A stretch of 64,000 nucleotides of DNA from Lachnospiraceae bacterium (GTDB lineage: Bacteria; Bacillota; Clostridia; Lachnospirales; Lachnospiraceae): positions 1 through 64,000 of the forward strand of contig JAEEOO010000017.1 of NCBI GenBank assembly GCA_016284315.1, in the 5' to 3' direction. Positions 5,448 to 57,107 of the stretch are shown here, one piece after another. Within the stretch, counting starts at the first letter, position 1. Every line of letters starts with the position of its first letter. The notes under the pieces were generated by a model, which did no database searches, had not been told where the DNA came from, and was given only the letters and a program-made list of their open reading frames with translations. The position numbers and the translations under genes are program-made.

Positions 5448-5999
5448 TTATTCTCTTGCAAAAGATTCATAGGATTTTTCAAGAAGAGAAATGGTCTCTT
5501 CATCGGTAAGATCAAAGTCTCCGGAGAGAGTCATGCAGGCTGCTCCGTGAATAAAGATCCACATCTTCATGAACATGTGACCGGGATTGGAGCATCCCAT
5601 TGTCCTTGCCAGATTGATCTCTTTAACAACATTTCCGTCTTCGCCGTTTAAGAGTTCATACATACTCTTTCCGCCCACGATACCGTTAACGAAAAGGAGT
5701 TTAAAATAGTTCTTCTCTTCTCTTGCAAAAGTTATATAAGCCAGTCCGAGGTTGGTAAAGGGAACGTTGCTCTTCTTTTCGAAAGCTTTATAGTACTCAA
5801 GGAAGTAACCGATGGTTTTATCGTATACGGCCTTCTGAAGTTCTTCCATATTCTTGTATACACGGAAGATAGGCTGAGTGGAACATCCTGCAGCTGCCGC
5901 AACTTTTCTGGCGGTAACGCTTTCAATTCCGGATTCCTTGACCATGTTAAAAGCTGTGTCAAGTATCATGTCGATAGTAATTGATTCTTTGCGTGCCAT
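5448..5999 (-). CDS. TetR-family transcriptional regulator
   Basis: This 183-residue protein has a TetR-type N-terminal DNA-binding domain: ITIDMILDTAFNMVKESG, then the helix-turn-helix SVTARKVAAAAGCSTQPIFR near residue 25. A helical C-terminal ligand and dimerisation region with MFMKMWIFIHGAACM follows. The effector cannot be predicted. It lies 20 bases after a hybrid histidine kinase and directly before an RpiR-type regulator, so three regulatory genes sit head to tail. Confidence 0.88.
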   Translation of the reverse strand: MARKESITIDMILDTAFNMVKESGIESVTARKVAAAAGCSTQPIFRVYKNMEELQKAVYDKTIGYFLEYYKAFEKKSNVPFTNLGLAYITFAREEKNYFKLLFVNGIVGGKSMYELLNGEDGNVVKEINLARTMGCSNPGHMFMKMWIFIHGAACMTLSGDFDLTDEETISLLEKSYESFARE

Positions 6000-6019
6000 T
6001 TGTTTCTTTTACCTTTCTC

Positions 6020-8230
6020 TTAACTGTTACTCTCAAAATATTTTCGAAGCAGGTCATCCACTCCTTTAATATCAATGGGTTTCGACATATAATCGTCAAA
6101 GCCTGCTTCAAGGTATGTTTCCTTAGCTCCGGTAATTGCATTTGCCGTCAGCGCTATAACAATAGTGCCATCGGATAGTAATTTATCTTTCCTCATCTTT
6201 GCCAAGGTTTCCATTCCGTCCATCTTGGGCATCATATGATCGAGGAAGATCATATCGTATTTAGTCTCTTTAACCTTCTCGATCGCTTCCGCACCGGATA
6301 ATGCCACATCCACTGTGACCTCGCTGAGCTTGAGGAATCTGGAAGCAACCTTAAGGTTCATATTGTTATCATCCACAACAAGGATCTTCTTGCCGGGTAT
6401 CTTAATGGGCTCGTGAATCGTGGTCTTTTTCTTCTCCGTTCCCTTAAGTTCAAAATCACCAATAGGTCTGGGATCCATGATCTCCTGGCCGACTACGAAG
6501 GAGAAAGTTGAACCTTTTCCATAGACGCTGTCCACCTCAAGTTTACTGTTCATCATATCAAGGAGACCTGTAACGATTGACATTCCAAGTCCGGTTCCTT
6601 CGATATTTCTGTTTCTCTTTTCCTCCACTCTTCCGAAGGATTCAAAGAGTTTGCCCATATCTTCTTCCTTGATTCCGATTCCCGTATCCTTTACTTCAAT
6701 GCGAAGGTATATCTCATTTCCGCATCTGGATTCTTCTCTGATAGAGAGAGTTACGCTTCCGCGCTCGGTATATTTGACTGCATTGGTAAGCAGGTTGACG
6801 ATTGTCTGTGCCACCCTGACGTCATCTCCGTAGAGTTCCCTCGGGATATTTGGATCTATATGCTTCATGAGATTAAGACTCTTGGATATAGCCCTGGGCG
6901 CAACCGAATTGATACAGTTGCTTATCATATCAACAGTTGAATACTTGACGGGGACGATCTCCATCTTTCCGCTTTCGATCTTTGAAAAGTCGAGAATACT
7001 GTTGATAAGTAATAGCAATGTTTTTCCTGCGGACTGAATGTTCTCGGAGTACTCAAGGATATCATCATCCTTGCACTCACGGAGTATCATCTCATTCATA
7101 CCAAGAACGGCATTAATAGGAGTTCTGATCTCATGGGACATCTGGGCCAGGAAACTACTCTTAGCCTTCTCCGCAGCAATTGCGGATTCAGCAGCTTCCT
7201 TCATACTTCTTGAATACATACGGTCCTTTGTAACGTCCAACATCAAAAGATAATAACCGCATTTCCTCCTGCCATCATACAAGTGGTTTGGCGTTACTTC
7301 ATAAATCTTGTCATCCTTTTCAAGAATGTAAGGCTCAGGAACGATCTCATTGTTCATGAAGATATGAAGAGCTGTCAGAATGACATCATATTGCTCTTCA
7401 TCCCTGTCAAGGAAAGCATCCGCTTTTGCTTTCGTCAGCGGAGGTATAACCCTTTTTGCCGATTTATTGGCAACCAGATATCTTCCGCTTCTGTCGAAGC
7501 ATACGATTCCACCGGTTCCTTCTTCAAGAAGAGTTTCCGAAATTCCGGCAGAAATATCGTAAAGCCTTATTCTTCTGAAAAGGAAAAGGAAGACAGTCTC
7601 AGCAATGATATAAAAGGCCGGCATGGTCTCAATTTCAAAACCAATGGTTCTTGAGATTGCTCTGGTTCCAAAGAACACGGTAACGCTGACTACGTCAAGA
7701 ACAATAAGAACATAAAGAGTTCTTATTGATGTATCCGGTCTGCAAACAAGGGCATAGACAAGAACACCGACGCTGGCTACCATTATAACGATCATGTACG
7801 CATAGAAAACCGTATGGAGCGGACCATATTCCTTGATCATGCTTCCGACTCCGTCCACCATAACAAAGGTAACCTTTTTATAAAACAGCGTTCCTTTATC
7901 CATTGTAAGCACTGCACCATACATGGCAAAAGCACATCCGAGCATTACTGCCCTGACAATGGGGTGGAGTTTAATATTGCAAAGTGAAATGATTCCGAAT
8001 AATAGGAAAAGATGAAGAAAACAGCCGCCCACATAAACAATCTTTTGGGCCATCAACGCCTCATGCAAGGTCCGGGCACTGTATAACCAGCTATAACCAA
8101 GGTTTACAAGAGGAACGATAGCGAATGTAAACATGTACTCAAATGACGCATTCTTTCGCCAACTGAGCACAAACAATATCATCATTATGCAGGCTATGAT
8201 TACAAACGTCTCATAATAAATATGCAGCAT
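6020..8230 (-). CDS. Membrane hybrid histidine kinase with C-terminal receiver
   Basis: This is a 736-residue sensor kinase. Residues 1-220 carry about seven hydrophobic segments resembling the 7TM histidine-kinase sensor module. A PAS-like stretch spans about 230-340 (GIVCFDRSGRYLVANKSAKR). The HisKA box AQMSHEIRTPINAVLG has the phospho-acceptor at His366. A HATPase domain spans about 470-600 (LLTNAVKYTERG, DTGIGIKEEDMGKLFESF, GTGLGMSIV). A receiver domain begins near 620 (ILVVDDNNMNL) with the predicted phospho-Asp in MIFLDHMMPKMDG and the switch lysine in MSKPID. No separate output protein is adjacent, so signalling probably passes to an unlinked HPt or regulator. The ribosome site (GGTGA) is weak. 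Confidence 0.9.
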   Translation of the reverse strand: MLHIYYETFVIIACIMMILFVLSWRKNASFEYMFTFAIVPLVNLGYSWLYSARTLHEALMAQKIVYVGGCFLHLFLLFGIISLCNIKLHPIVRAVMLGCAFAMYGAVLTMDKGTLFYKKVTFVMVDGVGSMIKEYGPLHTVFYAYMIVIMVASVGVLVYALVCRPDTSIRTLYVLIVLDVVSVTVFFGTRAISRTIGFEIETMPAFYIIAETVFLFLFRRIRLYDISAGISETLLEEGTGGIVCFDRSGRYLVANKSAKRVIPPLTKAKADAFLDRDEEQYDVILTALHIFMNNEIVPEPYILEKDDKIYEVTPNHLYDGRRKCGYYLLMLDVTKDRMYSRSMKEAAESAIAAEKAKSSFLAQMSHEIRTPINAVLGMNEMILRECKDDDILEYSENIQSAGKTLLLLINSILDFSKIESGKMEIVPVKYSTVDMISNCINSVAPRAISKSLNLMKHIDPNIPRELYGDDVRVAQTIVNLLTNAVKYTERGSVTLSIREESRCGNEIYLRIEVKDTGIGIKEEDMGKLFESFGRVEEKRNRNIEGTGLGMSIVTGLLDMMNSKLEVDSVYGKGSTFSFVVGQEIMDPRPIGDFELKGTEKKKTTIHEPIKIPGKKILVVDDNNMNLKVASRFLKLSEVTVDVALSGAEAIEKVKETKYDMIFLDHMMPKMDGMETLAKMRKDKLLSDGTIVIALTANAITGAKETYLEAGFDDYMSKPIDIKGVDDLLRKYFESNS

Positions 8231-9876: not shown

Positions 9877-9914
9877 GATGATATCCTTTCGTTTAAGTTT
9901 TAAATCCTAGTGAC

Positions 9915-10057
9915 GGCGTCTAGTTTGTCATAGTTGTTTTCAGCACCGCTTCTCAGCTGTAGTGTCCTCGAAGCAGCGGTACTAAGCTCATTCTTCGAAT
10001 TCGCTAAGTGCCGGCCTCGGACATACTGCTGAAAATCAACTATAACAAACTCCCGCC
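9915..10057 (+). repeat. Structured dispersed repeat, copy A (oadB-oadA gap)
   Basis: Copy A is a 143-bp element in the same orientation as copy C and opposite to copy B. The outer GGCG/CGCC pair is followed by arms GTTTGTCATAGTTG and CAACTATAACAAAC that pair with each other across a core. The core holds CACCGCTTCTCAGC, TGTCCTCG, CAGCGGTACTAAGCTC, the hairpin ATTC-TTC-GAAT, CGCTAAGTGCCGG and CCTCGGACAT. The core matches copies B (31886-32039) and C (56948-57099), while the arms differ in sequence. Boundaries are set by the outermost paired bases and are approximate. It fills most of the 207-bp gap within the decarboxylase cluster. Confidence 0.8.
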
Positions 10058-10083
10058 TGTAATATTATTAGTTCTGATCTTGA

Positions 10084-31543: not shown

Positions 31544-31599
31544 TATCTCTCCTCCTTTCTTTCATGATTTCTATATTTCTCGTTTTTTTATTTCTCGGT

Positions 31600-31835
31600 G
31601 TGGTTCCGGCAAGTTGGTTCTTCGCTACGATTCCGCTACTAAGCTCGAGCCACTTTGCTAAATTCAAAATCGCCCTGCAATTCATCTTGCCTCAGCAAGA
31701 TGACCGCCCCAAGGCGGGCAACGCCATTTACTGGCGTTGCAGGACTCGCAACGCTCGCCTCATCATGGCGAGCTGCTCAAACATTATCGCAGGAACGATT
31801 TACGCACGTGTCTCTTGCTAAGTGCTCCATCTACC
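31600..31835. repeat. Hairpin-rich intergenic element between flhB and flhA
   Basis: This GC-richer non-coding stretch has four consecutive short-loop hairpins: CATCTTGC-CTCA-GCAAGATG (31683-31702), CCGCC-CCAA-GGCGG (31704-31717), GCAACGCCA-TTTAC-TGGCGTTGC (31718-31740) and GCTCGCC-TCATCAT-GGCGAGC (31753-31773). The block is flanked by ACTAAGCTC and GCTAAGTGC, short motifs also found around the small hairpin in repeat copy A. No reading frame of note is present. I infer a structured RNA or repeat insertion related to its neighbour at 31886; boundaries are approximate. Confidence 0.6.
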
Positions 31836-31885
31836 CGCTCAGATACCAATCTTACCGCACCCGCACCTTGAGATTGTGATAAACA

Positions 31886-32039
31886 GGCGGAGACTGTGAG
31901 CTATATGTGTGAAGGCAGCATGTCCGAGGCCGGTACTTAACGAAAACAAGCGGAAGCGCAGTTTGAGTTTAGTTCCGCTGCCACGAGGACCTGAAGCCGA
32001 GAGGCGGTGCCTGAACACATATACTCGCAGTAGGCCGCC
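31886..32039 (-). repeat. Structured dispersed repeat, copy B (flhB-flhA gap)
   Basis: Copy B is a 154-bp element, inverted relative to copies A and C, so it is in the sense of the flagellar operon. It has GGCGG-CCTA and TCT-CCGCC ends, arms CTGCGAGTATATGTG and CACATATAGCTCACAG that pair, and the core CACCGCCTCTCGGCTTCAGG. It also has a small stem AAAC/GTTT, and GTTAAGTACCGGCCTCGGAC. The core is almost identical to copy C while the arms are unrelated. It begins 16 bases after the flhB stop codon. Confidence 0.82.
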
Positions 32040-32055
32040 GTCGCTTATAAAGCAT

Positions 32056-56866: not shown

Positions 56867-56947
56867 GTGTTTTTTTCAAATTTTTTTATTTTTTTTTGTA
56901 AATGTTAGAAAAGCCCGTAATTACGTGGTTTTTGTTATTCTAGTGTC

Positions 56948-57099
56948 GGGGGCCTACTACATGTAATATGCTTCCGGCACCGCCTCTCGGCTTCAGGTCC
57001 TCGTGGCAGCGGAACTAAACTCATACTTCGTTTCACTCGTATTCGTTAAGTACCGGCCTCGGACATGCTGCCGTCATCATATCACATGCAGTCTCCCCC
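56948..57099 (+). repeat. Structured dispersed repeat, copy C (polC-tRNA gap)
   Basis: Copy C is a 152-bp element with ends GGGGG-CCTA and TCT-CCCCC. It has paired arms (CTACATGTAATATG with CATCATATCACATGCAG) and a core with CACCGCCTCTCGGCTTCAGG, TCCTCGTGGCAGCGGAACTA, a small stem ATAC/GTAT, then GTTAAGTACCGGCCTCGGAC. The core is nearly identical to copy B. Beyond the ends TAGTGTC and GATACTA may extend the pairing. It lies between the polC terminator and the tRNA promoter. Confidence 0.82.
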
Positions 57100-57107
57100 T
57101 CGATACT

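Follow-up and report, generated by a model that had tools for sequence, protein, structure and literature searches.

The sequence that lies between a tRNA/topA and the gene for a PolC-type DNA polymerase in this Lachnospiraceae genome folds on itself and recurs between other genes, which raises the question of whether such a repeat is a structured RNA or a structured element that moves. An earlier note, made from the letters alone, had described three copies (A, B and C) in the window, by which we mean the whole stretch of 64,000 nucleotides analysed here. All three are present where they had been placed, and at E < 1e-29 the window has no others that match R1, a covariance model that we built from eight copies of the window's own genome; a fourth, partial R1 match (9977-10013, plus strand, E 0.04) is copy A seen on the opposite strand. 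We argue below that the R1 elements are probably small, non-autonomous, paired and structured mobile elements, a sister branch of the TwoAYGGAY family (RF01731), the folded strand of which is moved by an enzyme encoded elsewhere. The features in the window are as follows.

about 9904..10062, minus strand: copy A, complete with its conserved ends, which read TTACAGG ... CGTCACTAGGAT on the folded strand; it lies between the genes for the beta subunit of a sodium-pump decarboxylase and the alpha subunit of an oxaloacetate decarboxylase
9926..10044, minus strand: R1-matched part of copy A, 119.5 bits
about 31560..31880, minus strand: structured element that is larger than copy B, differs from it and forms its inverted partner
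about 31881..32050, plus strand: copy B, full element, in the gap that separates flhB from flhA
31900..32027, plus strand: R1-matched part of copy B, 110.9 bits
about 56937..57104, minus strand: copy C, whole element, between tRNA/topA and the PolC-type DNA polymerase gene
56960..57086, minus strand: R1-matched part of copy C, 123 bits
56982..56991, minus strand: hairpin GCC-GAGA-GGC of copy C with a GNRA-type loop, the stem being GAC/GTC or GCT/AGC in other copies
57015..57022, minus strand: conserved apical helix motif of copy C, 3' strand, GAGTTTAG
57043..57050, minus strand: conserved apical helix motif of copy C, 5' strand, CTTAACGA

The count of three proved far too low once the search left the window. 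The own genome, which is 81% complete, holds 17 R1 copies, and the model finds copies in 29 of the 31 genomes of the genus (up to 28 each) and in 38 of 100 genera of the family (up to 25 each). In a sample of the order, R1 matches occur in seven of 196 genomes, the own genome included, and all seven belong to the Lachnospiraceae: seven of the 22 listed family members match, against none of the remaining 174, of which five are listed as other families and 169 were assigned by list order. The family and order scans used stricter filters, which lose weak R1 copies; within the order as sampled, R1 matches are confined to a single bacterial family. Rfam gave no match over the element in the window, in copy C or in 36 other loci, and no riboswitch, ribozyme or HEARO; RF01731 itself has no match in the window or the own genome at its gathering score of 43 bits. 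An origin in phages or plasmids was rejected, copy C matching nothing among 50,697 phage records or 72,556 plasmid records, and viral contigs gave zero exact hits of the core pattern. Titles and abstract openings in the literature yielded no description of the R1 sequence family. The suspicion that the family is undescribed thus holds for Rfam, for phage and plasmid records and for the published descriptions covered, and is qualified by the resemblance to TwoAYGGAY discussed below. The Lachnospiraceae, a major family of the gut and rumen, gain a large group of structured mobile repeats that are often paired and, it seems, undescribed so far.

The folding of copy C is beyond chance: the minus strand reaches -68.3 kcal/mol (z = -7.1) and the plus strand -49.9 kcal/mol (z = -3.6), and on either strand none of 200 shuffles was equally stable. 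The orientation first given to the copies has to be turned round, as the reverse complement folds better, placing A and C on the minus strand and B on the plus strand. This reverse strand is the better folder in each of the 10 own copies; with RNA parameters it comes out ahead in 99 of 120 distinct copies, and with DNA parameters in 107 of 128 copies (duplicates included). Paired positions hold 115 G·U against 28 A·C, an excess that points to a strand preference, and the arms are nearly strand-symmetric (254 G·U, 184 A·C-equivalent).

Read on the folded strand, with the base pairs assigned partly by eye, the R1 element of the own genome is a branched structure of about 155-170 nt, ends included. 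On its 5' side a conserved end, WWACAG in most own copies, leads into a short GC-rich end helix, a small internal loop and a long arm helix, the sequence of which is unique to each copy. The branched core begins with GGCA/TGCC, followed by a covarying helix (CAG/CTG, ATG/CAT, AGT/ACT), and continues through GTCC/GGAC and CGG/CCG into an apical helix, ACT-U-AGC-GA.../...GA-GCU-U-AGU, so that the long core helix features a tandem G·A, a U·U and CUUAG/CUUAG; in copy C the strands GAGTTTAG and CTTAACGA face each other as tandem G·A, three base pairs and U·U. The pairing of CGG-ACT-AA with TT-AGT-CCG proposed earlier survives as this apical helix, with the correction that it contains the U·U mismatch and the tandem G·A. 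A small hairpin follows, GCC-GAGA-GGC or its variants, and the TCTC remarked on earlier is, on the better-folding strand, its GAGA loop. On the 3' side the arm strands come back and are followed, in most own copies, by the end CGTNACTAGGAT; the first bases of the end CGTNACTAGGA are part of the stem. The two ends of single copies are mostly dissimilar (WWACAG vs CTAGGAT). We rejected the end motif TCCTAGTNACG as a hallmark of the element, as it is not over-represented in five genomes (34 matches against 50 for a reversed control), and in the own genome seven of its 11 matches lie at R1 copies. Other stretches with TCCTAGTNACG resemble elements that have different interiors, miniature forms of about 45 nt or remnants; the miniature forms and remnants may be chance, because the number of TCCTAGTNACG matches is about what chance gives.

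Both the core and the arms vary in ways that preserve pairing. Alignment A4 comprises 128 matches (120 distinct) from 99 selected loci, some of them fetched for holding pairs, and its copies are non-independent where they share a genome or genus. Across the 120 distinct copies, 95.0% of 4043 paired cells pair and 32 of 35 pairs have changed on both sides; cells changed on both sides number 1238, where shuffles average 346 and slid controls reach 245 at the most. Because A4 was fitted to model R1, the cleaner control is a MAFFT alignment of eight own copies, in which 92.5% of cells pair and both-side changes occur at 15 pairs (shuffle mean 8.2; slid versions 1-5) and in 30 cells (11.5 in shuffles), further pair types being not above shuffles (21 vs 20.2).

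The outer arms were examined by exchanging them among the 120 copies. Own arms average -38.3 kcal/mol and foreign arms -15.8 kcal/mol, and the own arm is the best partner of 120 in 96 cases and among the top three in 116. Non-complementary arms, which the earlier note had regarded as telling against its reading, are found in one of the 120 distinct copies (L022) when defined by an arm energy weaker than -15 kcal/mol. The left half of the exception (L022/L004, own contig C5, about 5900-6065) belongs to one subtype and the right half to another, and it looks like a chimera of two subtypes, through recombination or an assembly error.

How private the arms are is best seen in two own copies, L012 and L016, the cores of which are 98% identical and the arms 63% (shuffled arms about 57%), each arm nonetheless pairing with its own partner; in the remaining most-similar core pairs the arms are 58-74% identical. 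That arms differ so much more than cores suggests a process quicker than drift, judging from the sequences compared, and gene conversion of the cores may be an alternative account of it. Three routes to such arms are conceivable: compensatory drift while the core stays fixed, correction templated by the hairpin, or regeneration of the arms when the element moves. Near-identical cores with almost wholly different, still self-complementary arms pose the question of the latter two. A hairpin at the target as the source of the arms was rejected, no such palindrome being apparent by eye in the empty sites A-C.

Comparison of orthologous sites across the genus, with R1 run over 65 loci and incomplete loci omitted, places most of these sites without the element. 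Both flanks of site C were found in 10 other genomes, and the own genome alone has an R1 match there. At site B, between flhB and flhA, 26 of the 29 loci read (of 30) have 34-134 nt between the reference points, and three have long inserts of 532-591 nt (own, G123 and G110); the insert of G110 carries two R1 matches in divergent order and that of G123 has no R1 match. Site A, between the decarboxylase beta and alpha genes, was read in 24 of 30 loci and has R1 matches in four of them: the own genome, G107, G120 and, weakly (33 bits), G102, with differing subtypes. Among the other loci at this site, 13 of the 24 have a short gap only, three about 100 nt and one (G124) a large, different insert. 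In G127, G109 and G126 (L282, L283, L291) site A is occupied by a different kind of insert, which has several hairpins and a length of about 165-195 nt. Site A may be an insertion hot spot. From the empty orthologous sites it follows that R1 elements have been inserted; a target-site duplication was not recognised by eye at sites A-C. With the covariation and the arm-swap result, the empty sites support the earlier view of a structured mobile repeat under selection for its structure.

The insertions are spread over many places, most of them between genes. Clustering of flanks gave about 70 distinct sites for the 120 copies, a rough and probably high figure because flanks shorter than 200 nt were omitted, and in 108 of the 120 copies any overlap with an open reading frame of 100 aa or more is 60 nt at most. 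The reading frames that flank them (110 cases) are arranged in tandem in 83, convergently in 18 and divergently in nine, compared with 98, 18 and 17 for other neighbours in the same loci, and the neighbouring genes are diverse.

Many copies come as pairs. Counting as close those neighbours that lie within 1 kb, all 20 of the 20 close R1 pairs among the matches listed for the genus (150 places) are divergent, their 5' ends facing, with 45-229 bp between model matches. Outside the genus, seven close pairs occur among the matches listed, the family list taken without the own genome's places and the order list as the places of G157 and G170 only: four divergent, two tandem and one convergent at 794 bp. 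Both tandem pairs belong to G039 (L186, L187), on the same strand and about 150-180 bp apart. Copy B is itself one half of a pair whose other half is a different element: the minus strand of 31560-31890 folds at -131.1 kcal/mol (z -7.9), this partner carries CTTAGCAA and GAGCTTAG in its two halves, and parts of it are found again on own contigs C37 and C49 as well as in genomes G107, G123 and G124. The pair at L164, which was read out in full, has inverted outer ends.

These observations bear on several other explanations of the repeat. A cis-regulatory leader or riboswitch acting on the downstream gene would account for the several own copies that sit directly upstream of start codons, and 37 of the 120 copies lie nearest a gene's 5' end in the sense direction; yet 71 of the 120 are nearest a 3' end and 12 are antisense at a 5' end, the neighbouring genes are diverse and orthologous sites mostly lack the element, so that position and orientation relative to genes speak against this reading, and we give it almost no weight. 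The copies might instead encode a domesticated non-coding RNA: transcribed from each copy, it would act in trans, for instance by serving as a decoy that binds a protein, and multiplicity would be a dosage effect. The GNRA loop, the tandem G·A and the preference for G·U over A·C at paired positions are RNA-like, and a decoy for CsrA has been proposed for TwoAYGGAY (available portion of PMC4333381); the AYGGAY loops behind that idea were not seen by eye in the R1 element, however, and the insertion-like distribution, the empty sites, the unlike members of pairs and the diversity of neighbours all stand against an RNA of this kind, which we regard as unlikely although it is the most plausible of the alternatives weighed in this and the next paragraph. 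An ordinary MITE of a DDE-type insertion sequence, with the outer ends TCCTAGTGACG ... CGTCACTAGGA as terminal inverted repeats, would fit the inverted outer ends of the L164 pair and an inverted repeat at the ends of copy C. It fits poorly with single copies, the ends of which are mostly unlike each other, with a conserved part that is the interior and not the ends, with an end motif no more frequent than its control and with the lack of a recognised target duplication, and we consider it improbable.

Somewhat better, though still doubtful, is the proposal that these are REPINs or BIMEs proper, that is, outsized REP-type repeats moved by a resident RAYT-type Y1 (HUH) transposase acting on single-stranded DNA hairpins. 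REP dimers look alike in forming inverted pairs between genes (PMC3733652, as far as its available text goes), and the genus holds RAYT-like genes with open frames of 208-322 aa, among them a Y1 gene on own contig C39 (L303, 1468-2247) that scores 78.4 bits to NF047646, for which the cut-off is 80. Within the genus PF01797 is found in six of the seven genomes with at least 14 copies and in three of the 24 others (Fisher P 0.0007, kinship ignored), but one of those six (G104) has only a 143-aa frame of IS200 type. Across the family the domain occurs in 23 of the 38 genera with R1 and in 33 of the 62 without R1 (P 0.54), and genera with at least eight copies do not stand apart from the others (P 0.14). 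Two genomes with a listed completeness of 100%, G039 and G060, have 11 and nine copies and no PF01797 match. None of 15 loci around Y1 genes has an R1 match, the repeats adjoining one RAYT-like gene (L300) are of another type, and the R1 element is much larger than the 20-40 bp REPs and has no GTAG tag. Dependence on Y1/RAYT transposases is not supported at the family level, and we regard a RAYT as an unlikely mobiliser, its association being confined to the genus and no linkage being seen in the 15 loci; the RAYT genes and the PF01797 associations in the genus and in 100 genera of the family yielded no mobilising enzyme. Loci L299 and L300 both contain RAYT-like Y1 genes, and the one at L300 is adjoined by a long, G-rich inverted repeat, which may be the equivalent of the TIRs known from TIRYT genes. 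Group II or retron, attC and Helitron-like readings were also weighed and set aside as presumably inapplicable.

The relationship that we favour is with TwoAYGGAY. RF01731 exceeds its cut-off in 17 of the 31 genomes of the genus, with up to nine matches, and it is found in one of the seven R1-rich genomes (at least 14 copies) compared with 16 of the 24 others (P 0.03, kinship ignored); the cultivated carrier G100 has three R1 and five TwoAYGGAY matches. Like the R1 element, TwoAYGGAY is multi-copy in the same genus, forms divergent pairs and has long outer arms that are self-complementary and specific to each copy. All nine of nine close TwoAYGGAY pairs among the matches listed are divergent, two of them with one member below the cut-off and the four weakest entries left out of the count; and when arms were taken from the flanks beyond the Rfam model, own arms gave -51.1 and foreign arms -20.1, the own arm being best in 29 of 29 copies, which fall in 19 flank clusters. 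The two also meet directly, in one mixed divergent pair (L063, genome G110), where the partner of an R1 element is an RF01731 match (1761-1921, 53.8 bits, gathering 43); one such mixed pair was seen.

A helix of tandem G·A, three base pairs and U·U (GARYUUAG / CUUARYGA) is common to both, as the closing stem in TwoAYGGAY and as the apical helix in the R1 element. In the order CTTARYGA..GARYTTAG it is present in 93 of 120 R1 copies and one of 29 TwoAYGGAY copies, and inside out, as GARYTTAG..CTTARYGA, in 11 of 29 TwoAYGGAY copies and none of the 120 R1 copies, with about zero in shuffles for either; the strict motif is absent from 18 of the 29. TwoAYGGAY differs in its two AYGGAY hairpin loops, in place of which R1 has the long tandem-GA helix and the GNRA hairpin: by eye, the loops of the R1 element are GNA/variable and GNRA, and the two AYGGAY loops were not seen. 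The two models miss each other's elements, with zero R1 matches in 30 RF01731 loci (L358-L387), and since they show no cross-match, sister status rests on architecture, pairing and the short motif. What the Rfam model of RF01731 describes seems to be no more than the core of an element that is larger and probably mobile. TwoAYGGAY has been listed as a probable RNA that is not cis-regulatory (Weinberg et al. 2010, PMC2864571), and a CsrA-binding role was proposed with its tandem GAs noted (PMC4333381); the accessible parts of three further papers (PMC11701678, PMC7657543, PMC11661157) add no function, and mention of mobility was not found in the accessible parts of these five papers. An orphan Rfam family thereby gains an alternative reading, as a mobile paired element and not a regulatory RNA.

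Beyond the fold, the covariation, the copy-specific arms, the insertion relative to empty sites and the divergent geometry of pairs in the genus, each of which can be read directly from the sequences, the reading of R1 as a paired mobile element would work as follows. An enzyme encoded elsewhere would recognise the folded single strand, either RNA or single-stranded DNA, and move it. What it recognises would be the conserved core plus a helix of any sequence, which would leave the sequence of the arms free while their pairing is kept. The elements would insert between genes, alone or, in the genus, as pairs facing away from each other. A more speculative extension, which we put forward tentatively and do not ourselves expect to hold, covers the class formed by the TwoAYGGAY and R1 branches together: the folded single strand would be the recognised unit, and the arms would be rewritten as a fresh inverted copy on or after moving, one enzyme both moving the core and building or correcting a new self-complementary arm.

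Two kinds of known repeats invite comparison with such a mobile element. REPs, in REPINs, BIMEs and their CGTC-tagged forms, resemble it in forming inverted dimers between genes (PMC3733652; PMC3116915); as these papers describe them in the parts available, REPs are hairpins with unpaired end tags, the transposase of the CGTC REPs being unknown, and they differ as palindromes of 20-40 bp with a GTAG or CGTC tag, whereas the R1 element has about 155-170 nt and a branched core. The bcr1-bcr18 repeats of the Bacillus cereus group are intergenic, 100-400 bp long and in the case of bcr1 present in tens of copies, and have features of mobile elements; some have conserved secondary structure and appear in transcripts (PMC6542083; PMC3446304). 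Going by these descriptions, taken from the available portions of both papers, they are like R1 in being intergenic, multi-copy, structured and mobile-like; they differ in belonging to other bacteria and in a TTTAT motif tied to mobility, and the same portions describe neither divergent pairs nor copy-specific arms. By defining features R1 is a member of neither the REPs nor TwoAYGGAY, and its likeness to the bcr repeats is one of description; by analogy, we read R1 and TwoAYGGAY as branches of one class that would work in the manner of REPINs or bcr repeats.
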